40,327 nucleotides of DNA from Sphingorhabdus sp. GTDB taxonomy: Bacteria > Pseudomonadota > Alphaproteobacteria > Sphingomonadales > Sphingomonadaceae. Position 1 is the first letter of the stretch, and every line of letters begins with the position of its first letter. The notes under the pieces are model-generated. The model ran no database searches, had not been told where the DNA came from, and saw nothing but the letters and a program-made list of their open reading frames with translations. Below are positions 3,515-7,303 of the stretch, in pieces. The DNA lies in the NCBI RefSeq assembly GCF_029865925.1, contig NZ_JARXAI010000048.1:1-40327 (forward strand). The letters are read 5' to 3'. Both the position numbers and the translations under genes were made by a program.

Positions 3515-4117
3515 GTGGTGAGTGATCTTTGGTTCAACATGGTTGCCGGTCTTGTGCTTGGATATGCGCTTGGCGCCATCCCTTTCGGTTTGCTCCTGAC
3601 TCGCTTGTCCGGTGGTGGCGACATCCGAACAATCGGTTCAGGGAACATCGGCGCCACCAACGTCTTGCGCACAGGACGCAAGGGTATGGCTGCACTCACA
3701 TTGATTCTGGATATGCTCAAAGGATTTTGTGCGGTGTGGTTAACCACCTATTATCTCCCTGGGGGAGAGATACTCGCAGCTGCAGGCGCGATTTTCGGCC
3801 ATCTGTACCCTGTGTGGCTTGGGTTCAAGGGTGGCAAAGGCTCTGCCACTTATGGCGGCATCTTGTTTGGCCTGTTTTTGCCGGGTGGGCTCATTTACGC
3901 GTCGGTGTGGGTTGGTGCTCTTGCGTTTTCACGTATTTCATCGGTGGCCGGTCTGGCAGCGGCACTCTGCGCACCTATTGCCGCTGCAATCCTCGGTCAT
4001 TATGATTTGGTTGCGATGCTTACCGCGTGCACGCTGATAGTTTTTTGGAAGCACCGCAGTAACATTGGGCGCTTGATTGATGGAACAGAGCCCCGCATCG
4101 GCGCAAGCAAAAGCTGA
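3515..4117 (+). CDS. plsY: Glycerol-3-phosphate acyltransferase PlsY
   Basis: This is an inner-membrane acyltransferase of 200 residues that transfers the acyl group from acyl-phosphate to glycerol-3-phosphate, the first step of phospholipid synthesis. Several hydrophobic segments are separated by the three conserved PlsY loops: GSGNIGATNV at 41-50, GHLYPVWLGFKGGKG at 95-109 and FWKHRSNIGRL near 177-187. The start is the first of two consecutive GTG codons, with AGAGGA six bases upstream; the second GTG is equally possible. In many alphaproteobacteria plsY is followed by dprA and topA. Here the next stretch is a wrecked dprA beginning five bases after the plsY stop, so the ancestral operon order is still legible. 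Confidence 0.96.
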   Translation: MVSDLWFNMVAGLVLGYALGAIPFGLLLTRLSGGGDIRTIGSGNIGATNVLRTGRKGMAALTLILDMLKGFCAVWLTTYYLPGGEILAAAGAIFGHLYPVWLGFKGGKGSATYGGILFGLFLPGGLIYASVWVGALAFSRISSVAGLAAALCAPIAAAILGHYDLVAMLTACTLIVFWKHRSNIGRLIDGTEPRIGASKS

Positions 4118-4122
4118 CTGCG

Positions 4123-4653
4123 GTGACTTTTGGCAGCCAGGTCCATTTTGATCAGCTCCGCTTGTAAAGTCACCCAATATTGGGCCTGTTAGTTATAGCC
4201 AGCTCATGTCGCGCTTCGGCAGTGCAAAGGCCGCTCTTGAGGCGTTACCTGACCTTGTGCGGCGCGGCTTGCAGCGGAGGCCGGGCGTGAGGTCATGGCT
4301 GTTCCAGGATCACCACTTGATCCGCGATTCCGCGGCTGCAACCAGCTTATCCGGAATGGTGCAACTCTTGCGCAAAATGCATCTGAGATTGTAGAGATGA
4401 TCCGTCCGATCGACAGTCGTATGCTTGGGCAGGCTGCATCCCACGCCAATCTAGCTCCAAAGATATCCGACGACGGTAGCAACGCCGAACGCAGCGCAGT
4501 TATCGACCTGATGGGCAGACCTATGTTTCGGTCGATGAATTGGTGCGGCAATCCGGAAGCAGTCCAGCAACTATCCAGATGGTATTACTGGAATTTGAGT
4601 TGGCCGGAAAATTGGAGCGCGGGGCAGGCGGCAAGGTTCGTTTTACAGCATGA
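4123..4653 (+). pseudogene. dprA: dprA relic: DNA processing protein A with internal deletion and frameshifts
   Basis: Four pieces of a DprA/Smf protein can be read in order but in different frames. The first runs from a GTG at 4123, five bases after plsY, to a TAA at 4165 (ending DQLRL). The second, about 4165-4267, continues with SPNIGPVSY and [15 protein letters not shown], the N-terminal SAM-like domain. The third, about 4262-4522, begins [17 protein letters not shown] and continues through LDPRFRGCN and [10 protein letters not shown], the end of the Rossmann-like domain. The fourth, about 4523-4653, reads [11 protein letters not shown] and [14 protein letters not shown] and ends at TGA, the C-terminal winged helix. 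The central core with the nucleotide-binding and SGxAxGID-type motifs is absent; compared with the ~360-residue family roughly 200 residues are lost. The junction sits in GCGCGGC (4262-4268), which suits both flanking frames and suggests deletion between short repeats. A functional DprA cannot be made from it. DprA loads RecA on incoming single strands during transformation. Confidence 0.9.
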
Positions 4654-4744
4654 AATAAAATCGCATTTTTCATCTTGACGGGGGGCGCCTTACCCCATCA
4701 GCCTGTACGCGTACGCGAGAGATTTTAGAAAAGCACAAAATATC
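4654..4744 (+). other. Spacer between dprA relic and topA
   Basis: No gene is visible. TTGACG at 4675-4680 could be a -35 box for topA, but no convincing -10 follows at normal spacing. GTACGCGTAC at 4705-4714 is a perfect 10-base palindrome. GGGG and CCCC blocks around 4680-4696 could pair. topA must be driven either from here or by read-through from plsY. Confidence 0.3.
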
Positions 4745-7303
4745 ATGCAATTAGTCATTGTTGAATCACCTGCAAAAGCCAAGACGATCGAGAAATATTT
4801 GGGCCCCGGCTTCAAAGTGCTGGCCTCTTACGGCCATATCCGTGACCTGCCGCCCAAGGATGGATCGGTCGACCCTGACAATGGGTTTGAAATGCTCTGG
4901 GACAACTATACCGACAAGGCCAAGCAGCTCAAGGCAATCACGGACGAGGCCAAGAAGGCAGATAGCTTAATCCTTGCGACCGACCCCGATCGCGAAGGTG
5001 AGGCAATCAGCTGGCATGTGCAGGAAGTGCTCGCGAAGAAAAAAGTGCTGCCGGCAAAGGTTGGCCGCGTAACCTTTAACGCCATTACCAAACAAGCCGT
5101 GACCGATGCTATGAAGCACCCACGCGCACTTGATGTGGACCTCATCGATGCCTATCGCGCCCGCCGCGCACTCGATTATCTGGTCGGTTTTACTCTTTCG
5201 CCTGTCTTGTGGCGCAAATTGCCCGGCGCGAAATCTGCCGGGCGTGTGCAGTCGGTCGCGTTGCGCCTAATCGTTGAACGCGAACGCGAAATCGAGGCGT
5301 TCCGTGCGCAGGAATATTGGTCCGTCAAAGCTGGCATGGAGCATAAGGGCCAAAAATTTGATGCCCGTTTGATCCAGTATCTTGGCAAGAAGCTCGACAA
5401 GATGGATTTGAAAACTGAGGGGGACGCAGAGCAAGCCCGCCTTGCAGTGGAAGCGGGCAAATTTACCGTCGAGACCGTTGAGACCAAACCTGTCACCCTC
5501 AATCCACAACCGCCCTTCACGACGTCCACTTTGCAGCAAGAAGCCGCGCGTAAGCTTGGTTTTTCCGCAAGCCATACGATGCGTATCGCGCAAGGCCTAT
5601 ATGAAGACGGCGCGATTACCTACATGCGGACCGATGGCGTCCAGATGGACCACAGCGCTATTTCCGCCGCGCGTAAATCCATCTCCGACCGCTTTGACAG
5701 TGGATATTTGCCTGAGAAACCTCGCGTTTATCAAACGAAGGCGAAGAATGCGCAGGAAGCGCATGAGGCAATACGTCCAACTGATTTCAATAAAGACAAA
5801 GCAGGTTCAGGGGATCATGGTCGCCTGTATGACCTGATTTTTAAACGTGCAATGGCAAGCCAAATGGCCTCGGCGCGGATGGAACGCACCACAATCGATT
5901 TTCTTGATGGCACCGGGCAAACAGGGTTACGCGTAACCGGACAAGTCATGAAATTCCCTGGTTTCCTTGCCGTGTATGAAGAAGGCCGCGACGATAGTGA
6001 CAGCGAAGACAGCGCCATCTTGCCAGCCATGGCCGTTGGCGACGCGCCTGCGAAGCACGCTGCGGAAAAGATCCAGCACTTTACGCAGCCGCCACCGCGT
6101 TTCTCTGAAGCGACGCTGGTGAAGCGTCTTGAAGAGTTGGGGATCGGCCGCCCATCGACATACGCGTCAACTATTCAGGTTCTAAAAGACCGCACATATG
6201 TACGTGTGGAAAAAAATCGTTTTTTTGCAGAGGAATCTGGGCGATTGCTTACAGCATTTCTTGAACGGTTTTTTGAACGTTATGTCGCTTATGATTACAC
6301 CGCTGGGCTAGAGGATCAGTTGGATGAAATTAGTGGTGGCCGTGCCAATTGGCAGTCATTTCTTGAGGCTTTTTGGCGTGATTTTAAACCGAAGACGGCT
6401 GAGGTCATGGAGCAGAAACCGTCAGAGGTTACAGCCGAACTTGATATATTCTTATCACCATATCTCTTTCCCAAACGCGAAGACGGAACTGATCCCAGAC
6501 TTTGCCCCAAATGTGGGGAGGGCAGGCTTGCCTTGCGCGGCGGAAAATTTGGAGCGTTTGTTGCGTGCTCCAATTACCCCGACTGCAAATATACCCGAAA
6601 ATTTGCACAGCCCGGGGGCGAAAATGGTGAAGATACCGGCCCCGAGATTCTAGGTCAGCATCCTGAAACCCAATTGGAAGTCACTCGAAAATCTGGGCGC
6701 TTTGGCCCTTATTTTGAAACGGGCGAGGGCACTGATGTAAAGCGAGCCTCAATACCGAAAGATATCCCGGCAGAAGATATTGGGTTAGAATGGGCTGTGA
6801 AGCTGCTGTCATTGCCCCGCACCATCGGGACACACCCAGAAAGCGGTGAACCAGTGATGGCAAGCATTGGTCGTTATGGGCCTTACCTTGCACATAATGG
6901 TAAATATGCCCGTTTGCAGTCAACCACCGAGGTGTTCGAAACCGGAATGAACAGCGCGGTTGTGAAGTTGGCCGAAGCTTTGGCTAACCCAGGCCGTGGG
7001 CGGGGTGCCGCACGCGCACCGTTGAAAGAATTAGGCAAGCATCCGCGCACTGAAGCTGAAATCAAGCTCATGGAGGGCCGCTTTGGTCCTTATGTGACCG
7101 ACGGCACCACCAATGCGACATTGCCCAAGTCGATTTCGCCTGATGCGCTTACACTTGAAGAAGCCGCGCAGCTAATCGATGCACGTGCAGCTATGCCGCC
7201 AAAGGGCAAGGTGAAGAAAAAGGCTGCGCCGAAAAAGAAAGCTGCGCCAAAGAAAGCAGCGGCAAAGCCAAAGTCTGCCCCTAAAACAAAGAAAGCGGAG
7301 TAA
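4745..7303 (+). CDS. topA: DNA topoisomerase I (type IA)
   Basis: This 852-residue enzyme relaxes negatively supercoiled DNA by a single-strand break. The N-terminal Toprim domain starts with VIVESPAKAKTI (E7 in ESPAKA) and carries D80-P-D-R-E-G-E86, the acidic Mg-binding motif. The catalytic tyrosine is Y293 in ITYMRTDG. The C-terminal part has one four-cysteine zinc ribbon (C587, C590, C608, C614) followed by topoisomerase C-terminal repeats (GRFGPY, GRYGPY and GRFGPY motifs). The last ~35 residues are an Ala/Lys/Pro tail, as in other alphaproteobacterial TopA proteins, likely a nonspecific DNA-binding extension. The ribosome-binding site upstream of the ATG is weak. The gene converges on the lepB-rnc-era operon. 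Confidence 0.97.
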   Translation: MQLVIVESPAKAKTIEKYLGPGFKVLASYGHIRDLPPKDGSVDPDNGFEMLWDNYTDKAKQLKAITDEAKKADSLILATDPDREGEAISWHVQEVLAKKKVLPAKVGRVTFNAITKQAVTDAMKHPRALDVDLIDAYRARRALDYLVGFTLSPVLWRKLPGAKSAGRVQSVALRLIVEREREIEAFRAQEYWSVKAGMEHKGQKFDARLIQYLGKKLDKMDLKTEGDAEQARLAVEAGKFTVETVETKPVTLNPQPPFTTSTLQQEAARKLGFSASHTMRIAQGLYEDGAITYMRTDGVQMDHSAISAARKSISDRFDSGYLPEKPRVYQTKAKNAQEAHEAIRPTDFNKDKAGSGDHGRLYDLIFKRAMASQMASARMERTTIDFLDGTGQTGLRVTGQVMKFPGFLAVYEEGRDDSDSEDSAILPAMAVGDAPAKHAAEKIQHFTQPPPRFSEATLVKRLEELGIGRPSTYASTIQVLKDRTYVRVEKNRFFAEESGRLLTAFLERFFERYVAYDYTAGLEDQLDEISGGRANWQSFLEAFWRDFKPKTAEVMEQKPSEVTAELDIFLSPYLFPKREDGTDPRLCPKCGEGRLALRGGKFGAFVACSNYPDCKYTRKFAQPGGENGEDTGPEILGQHPETQLEVTRKSGRFGPYFETGEGTDVKRASIPKDIPAEDIGLEWAVKLLSLPRTIGTHPESGEPVMASIGRYGPYLAHNGKYARLQSTTEVFETGMNSAVVKLAEALANPGRGRGAARAPLKELGKHPRTEAEIKLMEGRFGPYVTDGTTNATLPKSISPDALTLEEAAQLIDARAAMPPKGKVKKKAAPKKKAAPKKAAAKPKSAPKTKKAE

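Follow-up and report, generated by a model that had tools for sequence, protein, structure and literature searches.

The stretch between plsY and topA of a Sphingorhabdus genome holds a dprA pseudogene that was left in place and that very probably belongs to a dismantled pathway, four genes of which are broken or missing. The analysed genome (G000) is a draft of 2,102,858 bases in 103 contigs with a completeness of 93.6%, and the window, meaning the whole 40-kb stretch of DNA analysed here, is its contig C2. Comparison with the intact dprA genes of close relatives identified positions 4123–4653 of the window as the pseudogene. As judged from the genes of G000 and its relatives, the best reading is that of a repeated, lineage-specific dismantling of the pathway that would serve both DNA uptake and the reception of DNA from gene transfer agents (GTA).

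Using the intact DprA of the sister genome G041 as tblastn query, we found four DprA pieces in order on the forward strand of the window, with identities of 81–96%. The first one (4123–4185) lies in the original start frame, begins with a GTG at 4123 and runs into an early stop, the match to aa 1–27 covering 4105–4185. A piece of the N-terminal HHH domain (DprA_N, PF21102) follows in a second frame at 4161–4265 (aa 20–55 at 4161–4268). Behind the deletion junction GCGCGGC at 4262–4268, where most of the Rossmann core is gone in the alignment with intact relatives, the end of this core and the linker are found in a third frame (4262–4516, aa 242–326, part of PF02481), and the winged-helix piece (DprA_WH, PF17782) with its stop occupies 4513–4653 (aa 326–371 at 4513–4650). 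The top tblastn score was 153 bits, whereas 200 mononucleotide shuffles of this stretch reached at most 21.6 bits and gave any match in 116 cases only. Pfam recognized DprA_N (E = 2.1e-14) and DprA_WH (E = 8.9e-12) in the pieces, as well as DNA_processg_A (PF02481) over positions 174–210 only (E = 5.8e-7; 29.3 bits, just below the cut-off of 29.6), and TIGR00732 reached 29.4 bits on the remnant, its cut-off being 191.15. With the PF02481 and TIGR00732 profiles no complete DprA Rossmann core in one open frame was found in the remnant, nor were the HHH and winged-helix domains found in frame with the core, both being present as pieces in other frames. The original prediction, made from the sequence alone, had described N-terminal, late-core and winged-helix segments of DprA in order and in shifting frames, and tblastn with the same frame order as well as Pfam now confirm this description.

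A single-frame dprA is present at the same locus, in the order plsY–dprA–topA, in the relatives G041, G002 and G013. Aligning G000 with these three genomes and with G035 revealed a 565-bp deletion and, close to 4165 and 4517, two frame lesions of a single base each. This agrees with two earlier claims, namely that the nucleotide-binding core is missing and that the damage goes back to more than one slip, as the two separate single-base lesions come in addition to the deletion. In a blastn comparison of window positions 4061–4760 with G041 two blocks were obtained (4061–4268 and 4262–4760, with 92.3% and 95.6% identity), and in this pairwise comparison the 565 bp between them are present in G041 only. 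The 7-bp repeat GCGCGGC stands at both ends of the deletion and the junction aligns to both flanks in G041, as expected from the proposed deletion between short direct repeats. As the intact gene of G041 contains five copies of GCGCGGC, slippage between repeats fits, although it is not the unique explanation.

It is exceedingly improbable that the remnant works as a short gene or RNA. An ATG-started ORF of 127 aa (4295–4678) does cross it, but from about 4516 on it is no longer in the DprA frame, it is without a complete DprA domain, and most of the corresponding sequence is deleted in G035. The substitutions on the G000 branch (3/6/8 at codon positions 1/2/3) also do not point to a strong coding constraint, at the low power of these counts.

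Both direct neighbours of the pseudogene are open on the forward strand, plsY (glycerol-3-phosphate acyltransferase, 3515–4117) on the left and topA (DNA topoisomerase I, 4745–7303), the marker used for finding the same locus in relatives, on the right; these two names follow the original prediction and are presumed from the sequences. As a control, 37 long non-overlapping ORFs of the corresponding G002 region were compared with the window, 33 of which align to it while four lie beyond the shared block. Only one of the 33, dprA, is in pieces, namely four, and the other 32 keep to one frame along all of the length available, including one that is cut by the window start. Among these, 29 are without stop, and in three the only stops lie in the lead-in, ahead of the likely start codon. 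General genome decay is thereby ruled out for the 40-kb window, to which this control applies. A separate observation concerns the last ~250 bp of plsY, which are unusually divergent from the sisters: at window positions ~3851–4110 the identity is 71–79% to G041, G002 and G035 but 79–87% to the more distant G013, and in the same two bins G041 and G002 share 94–96%. From its sequence this divergent tract directly before the dprA remnant looks like an imported one.

Two consequences had been offered for the loss of dprA, either that the lineage no longer transforms naturally or that it has a second copy. The latter was not borne out, as the genome-wide search with PF02481 found one place only, the remnant itself (window 4259–4372, positions 173–210 of 212, 28.3 bits and below the cut-off), so that no second dprA was detected in the 2.1-Mb draft; this absence is strong and not absolute because the genome is 93.6% complete. 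As close relatives have an intact orthologue at this locus and no second copy was found in the draft, the dprA of G000 has the properties of a unitary pseudogene. The former alternative gains much support from the state of the other uptake genes, for which we carried out the genome search for comEC, comF and comM that the original prediction had proposed, all three being broken or missing; the lineage would hence probably no longer transform. For comEC, no PF03772 match was found in G000, where a 1,892-bp deletion (6-bp overlap) has brought the neighbours of the gene together, leaving aa 2–63 and 693–715 of 715. The comF gene shows a TIGR00201 match over positions 15–124 of 190 and lesions of 7 bp and 23 bp, between which the PRPP-binding segment (presumably the PRPP loop) is out of frame, although the reading frame stays open overall. 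The cut-off of TIGR00201 was reached in none of 45 genus genomes and comF was therefore called by the extent of the match and by alignment with the G041 and G002 genes. For comM, only a background chelatase-like TIGR00368 match was found in the genome, and its slot between the GST-like gene and rpsA comprises 789 bp with no comM trace. It carries an ORF of 196 aa with DUF4440 (L181:2556–3146, contig C3 of G000), and this gene does not align to the same place in G002 or G041; a plasmid origin of the 789 bp was considered and rejected, as no match was found in a plasmid collection. The gene names lexA, citrate-synthase-like, GST-like and rpsA used for neighbours are our assumption from their sequences. 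Thus, dprA, comEC and comF are broken at their usual chromosomal places and comM is gone from its place, the neighbouring genes being whole. No interruption by a mobile element was met for dprA and comEC, both lesions being deletions.

The draft status of the genome with its 103 contigs could suggest a consensus error, a chimeric join or a binning artefact. We consider this extremely unlikely: the deletion is clean, lies at a 7-bp repeat and is accompanied by two separate frame lesions, the other 32 ORFs aligned to the window are in frame, and comEC, comF and comM, which sit on three contigs other than that of dprA, are broken or missing as well. Errors of this kind are not expected to fall selectively on a single pathway or to repeat this selectivity in other genomes. 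It is also very unlikely that dprA was lost for reasons of its own while DNA uptake works via another RecA loader or a second DprA copy. Such separate losses do occur, as the genomes G059 and G131 of the family and the congener G015 lost or broke dprA with comEC and comM being present, but in G000 comEC, comF and comM are also broken or missing and there is no second PF02481 match. The dismantling of the whole pathway is thus the preferred reading, and this pathway-wide and repeated loss lies beyond what the original prediction could see from the window.

To follow the four genes through the genus we analysed 45 genomes, 41 of which have a PF02481 match above cut-off. In G041 and G013 each of the four genes is open. 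In G002 dprA, comF and comM are open and an in-frame stop interrupts comEC (L147, 3536–5683, minus strand) near aa 597 of 715; this stop leaves 596 of 715 codons and falls after the core domain in a relative that is otherwise intact. The sister G035, whose assembly has 580 contigs and 7% contamination, shows damage in the same four genes as G000. Its dprA has a frame lesion and is without about aa 102–336, its comEC keeps aa 5–137 (frame-shifted) and 686–715, its comM has an in-frame internal loss of about aa 322–423 with a joined score that passes the family cut-off, and in its comF the frame is disrupted near aa 258. The dprA and comF lesions differ from those of G000, so that for these two genes the comparison with G035 speaks for lesions unique to the lineage, and as each of the two genomes keeps dprA codons that the other lacks, neither dprA state can be derived from the other. 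For comEC and comM an older lesion common to both may hide under the larger losses of G000. A left breakpoint shared by G035 and G000 had been considered since blastn stops at 4268 in both, and was rejected as the alignment shows G035 running past this position. Similarly, a PF02481 match of 24.2 bits on contig C297 of G035 was rejected as DprA on reading its sequence, which by eye we take to be a LOG/lysine-decarboxylase-like Rossmann protein.

Further lesions were found in other combinations. In the congener G011 only aa 246–295 and 342–368 of dprA, aa 325–471 of comEC in two frames and aa 1–44 of comM are left, and the genome search found no comF, one weak match to the comF model being discounted on reading as what appears by eye to be a ribose-phosphate pyrophosphokinase-like protein. 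G030 has a comEC deleted between aa 45 and 660, a split comM and a dprA cut by a contig end. In G039 comEC, comF and comM are broken and dprA is open (L151, L153, L188), showing that dprA need not go first. The comEC of G024 carries a stop and frame changes, and that of G020 (L215) a frame change at about aa 266–274; G020 carries an open dprA and more than one copy of this gene. In G015 dprA (L040) has a 160-bp frame-changing deletion and comEC, comM and comF look open, so this break is possibly an early stage or an assembly error. A split or stop-bearing comM was also found in G012, G014, G018 and G020.

In order to compare these losses across the genus, G008 and G030 were set aside because of contig ends. 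A comEC lesion was present in three of the four genomes with a dprA lesion (G000, G035 and G011, not G015) but only in four of the 39 without (G024, G039, G020 and G002; Fisher p = 0.010, genomes treated as independent). We also searched 397 genomes of the family with at least 90% completeness, drawn evenly from a larger group, and found a PF02481 match in 387 of them, above cut-off in 385. One of the 12 genomes without a full dprA is G000 and the other 11 served as cases outside the genus, which were compared with 26 dprA-bearing controls hand-picked from seven of the cases' nine genera (37 genomes in total; for the cases G059 and G131 the controls include no genome of the same genus). No comEC match was obtained in 7/11 cases and 0/26 controls, and comM was below cut-off in likewise 7/11 cases and 0/26 controls (p = 3e-5 for each, genomes treated as independent although they are not entirely so), both findings applying to five cases and to no control. 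Four of the 11 cases are drafts of at least 380 contigs; with the cases of at most 120 contigs only, comEC is missing in 4/7 and comM in 5/7, again vs 0/26. Flawed genes exist among the 26 controls too, with comEC split, short or with a stop in G272, G144 and G047 and comM split or with stops in G061, G234, G320 and G144. The co-loss is imperfect, as G059 and G131 are without dprA yet have comEC and comM, G313 is without dprA and comM yet has comEC, and G135 and G397 are without dprA and comEC yet have comM.

The loss of dprA had been called recent because of well preserved codons. The timing finds some support in the presence of a whole dprA in relatives at about 94% nucleotide identity (93.9–94.1% between G000 and G041, G002 and G035 over the concatenated flanks), but the codon-position signal is too weak for dating. 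Third positions account for 22 of 47 substitutions in the remnants of G000 and G035 vs 36 of 56 on intact branches, and with no clear difference (p = 0.11) a signal of relaxed selection was set aside as evidence. The order of G000, G041, G002 and G035 came out unsettled both in a topA tree of 30 genomes and with eight concatenated blocks of five genomes, where site patterns conflict between blocks. The disagreement of shared-site patterns among these eight blocks of G000, G041, G002, G035 and G013 is as expected under recombination between lineages.

For a possible connection to GTAs we used a single marker, TIGR02218 (phage/GTA baseplate hub), which is present in 21 of the 45 genus genomes; the profile search of these 45 gave no match in G000, G041, G002, G013, G035 and G011. 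Four places carry a stop (in G001, G003, G010 and G036). Comparing 20 hub regions from 19 of the 21 genomes, with G001, G036 and the second place of G007 left out, we found portal, capsid, distal tail and hub above the NCBIfam cut-offs in the G009 region, with the 'megatron' below its cut-off. For 14 of the remaining 19 regions the alignment extends from the capsid through to the final tail gene; in three (G027, G008 and G034) the tail part is visible until the contig ends, and in both regions of G018 the alignment is limited to tail genes and is weak in one of them. No hub-bearing genome out of 21 shows a dprA or comEC lesion, compared with nine of the 24 hub-less ones (Fisher p = 0.002); when G002 and G020 are not counted, the lesions are found in 7/24 vs 0/21 (p = 0.010). 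This test is exploratory, as the lesions to be counted were selected with the data already in view and the genomes were taken without tree correction; moreover, the hub-bearing G008 and G019 are only partly assessable due to contig ends and incomplete drafts may hide GTA clusters among the hub-less genomes. The hub-bearing G018 with its split comM speaks against a strict rule. It is a tentative and rather doubtful idea that ComEC, ComF, ComM and DprA are kept in Sphingorhabdus mainly as the receiving side of GTAs and that GTA-losing lineages dismantle them, with different lesions each time.

For the preferred reading, the dismantling of the uptake and recipient pathway, the presumed course is that the ComEC channel, ComF, DprA loading RecA on incoming single strands and the ComM helicase became useless or costly. 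A first hit would then remove the selection on the remaining genes, and small indels as well as deletions between short direct repeats would cause their decay. The resulting cell would be unable to integrate free or GTA-delivered DNA via the ComEC–ComF–DprA–ComM route.

Losses of competence genes as such are known, and the present cases were not met in the literature searched. Searches for Sphingorhabdus and dprA, for Sphingomonadaceae competence and dprA and for sphingomonad transformation and comEC found no reports, most subscription papers being outside their reach. In Pasteurellaceae unique and recent lesions break different uptake genes in each lineage, and a competent ancestor was inferred (PMC1626085). 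The damage to several pathway genes in G000 (dprA, comEC and comF, with comM missing) resembles these losses. In contrast, at most three defects per lineage and never a defective dprA are listed in a table of that report (PMC1626085), whereas here four genes are hit, and again so in relatives. The host group also differs, being Alphaproteobacteria, where the same genes also serve GTAs. In Acinetobacter baumannii comM is frequently inactivated in nature across strains, along with variation in transformability (PMC11472951), which is likewise a natural loss of a transformation gene. According to that study, mostly mobile elements in comM are responsible there and other competence genes are seldom inactivated, whereas we found deletions and indels in dprA, comEC and comF with several pathway genes hit together. 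For alphaproteobacterial GTAs, PMC10883770 reports that DNA entry is assisted by ComEC, ComF and ComM and the integration of the GTA-borne DNA by DprA and RecA. It also describes, for 293 GTA-containing genomes, a co-evolution in rate of GTA genes with comEC, comF and dprA. As in that work, the same genes appear tied together and to GTAs as a recipient pathway, but there the link is one of evolutionary rates and here it is physical gene loss, in genomes without a detected GTA hub gene.

These losses are of interest for how many genes are hit, for the recurrence of the damage in close relatives and for a possible tie to GTAs. DNA uptake of a sphingomonad should not be assumed from the dprA and comEC of a close relative. 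With relatives at about 94–96% nucleotide identity, the four uptake genes intact or broken and GTAs coming and going, the genus offers a natural experiment that bears on what keeps competence genes and on how their loss affects recombination and genome content.
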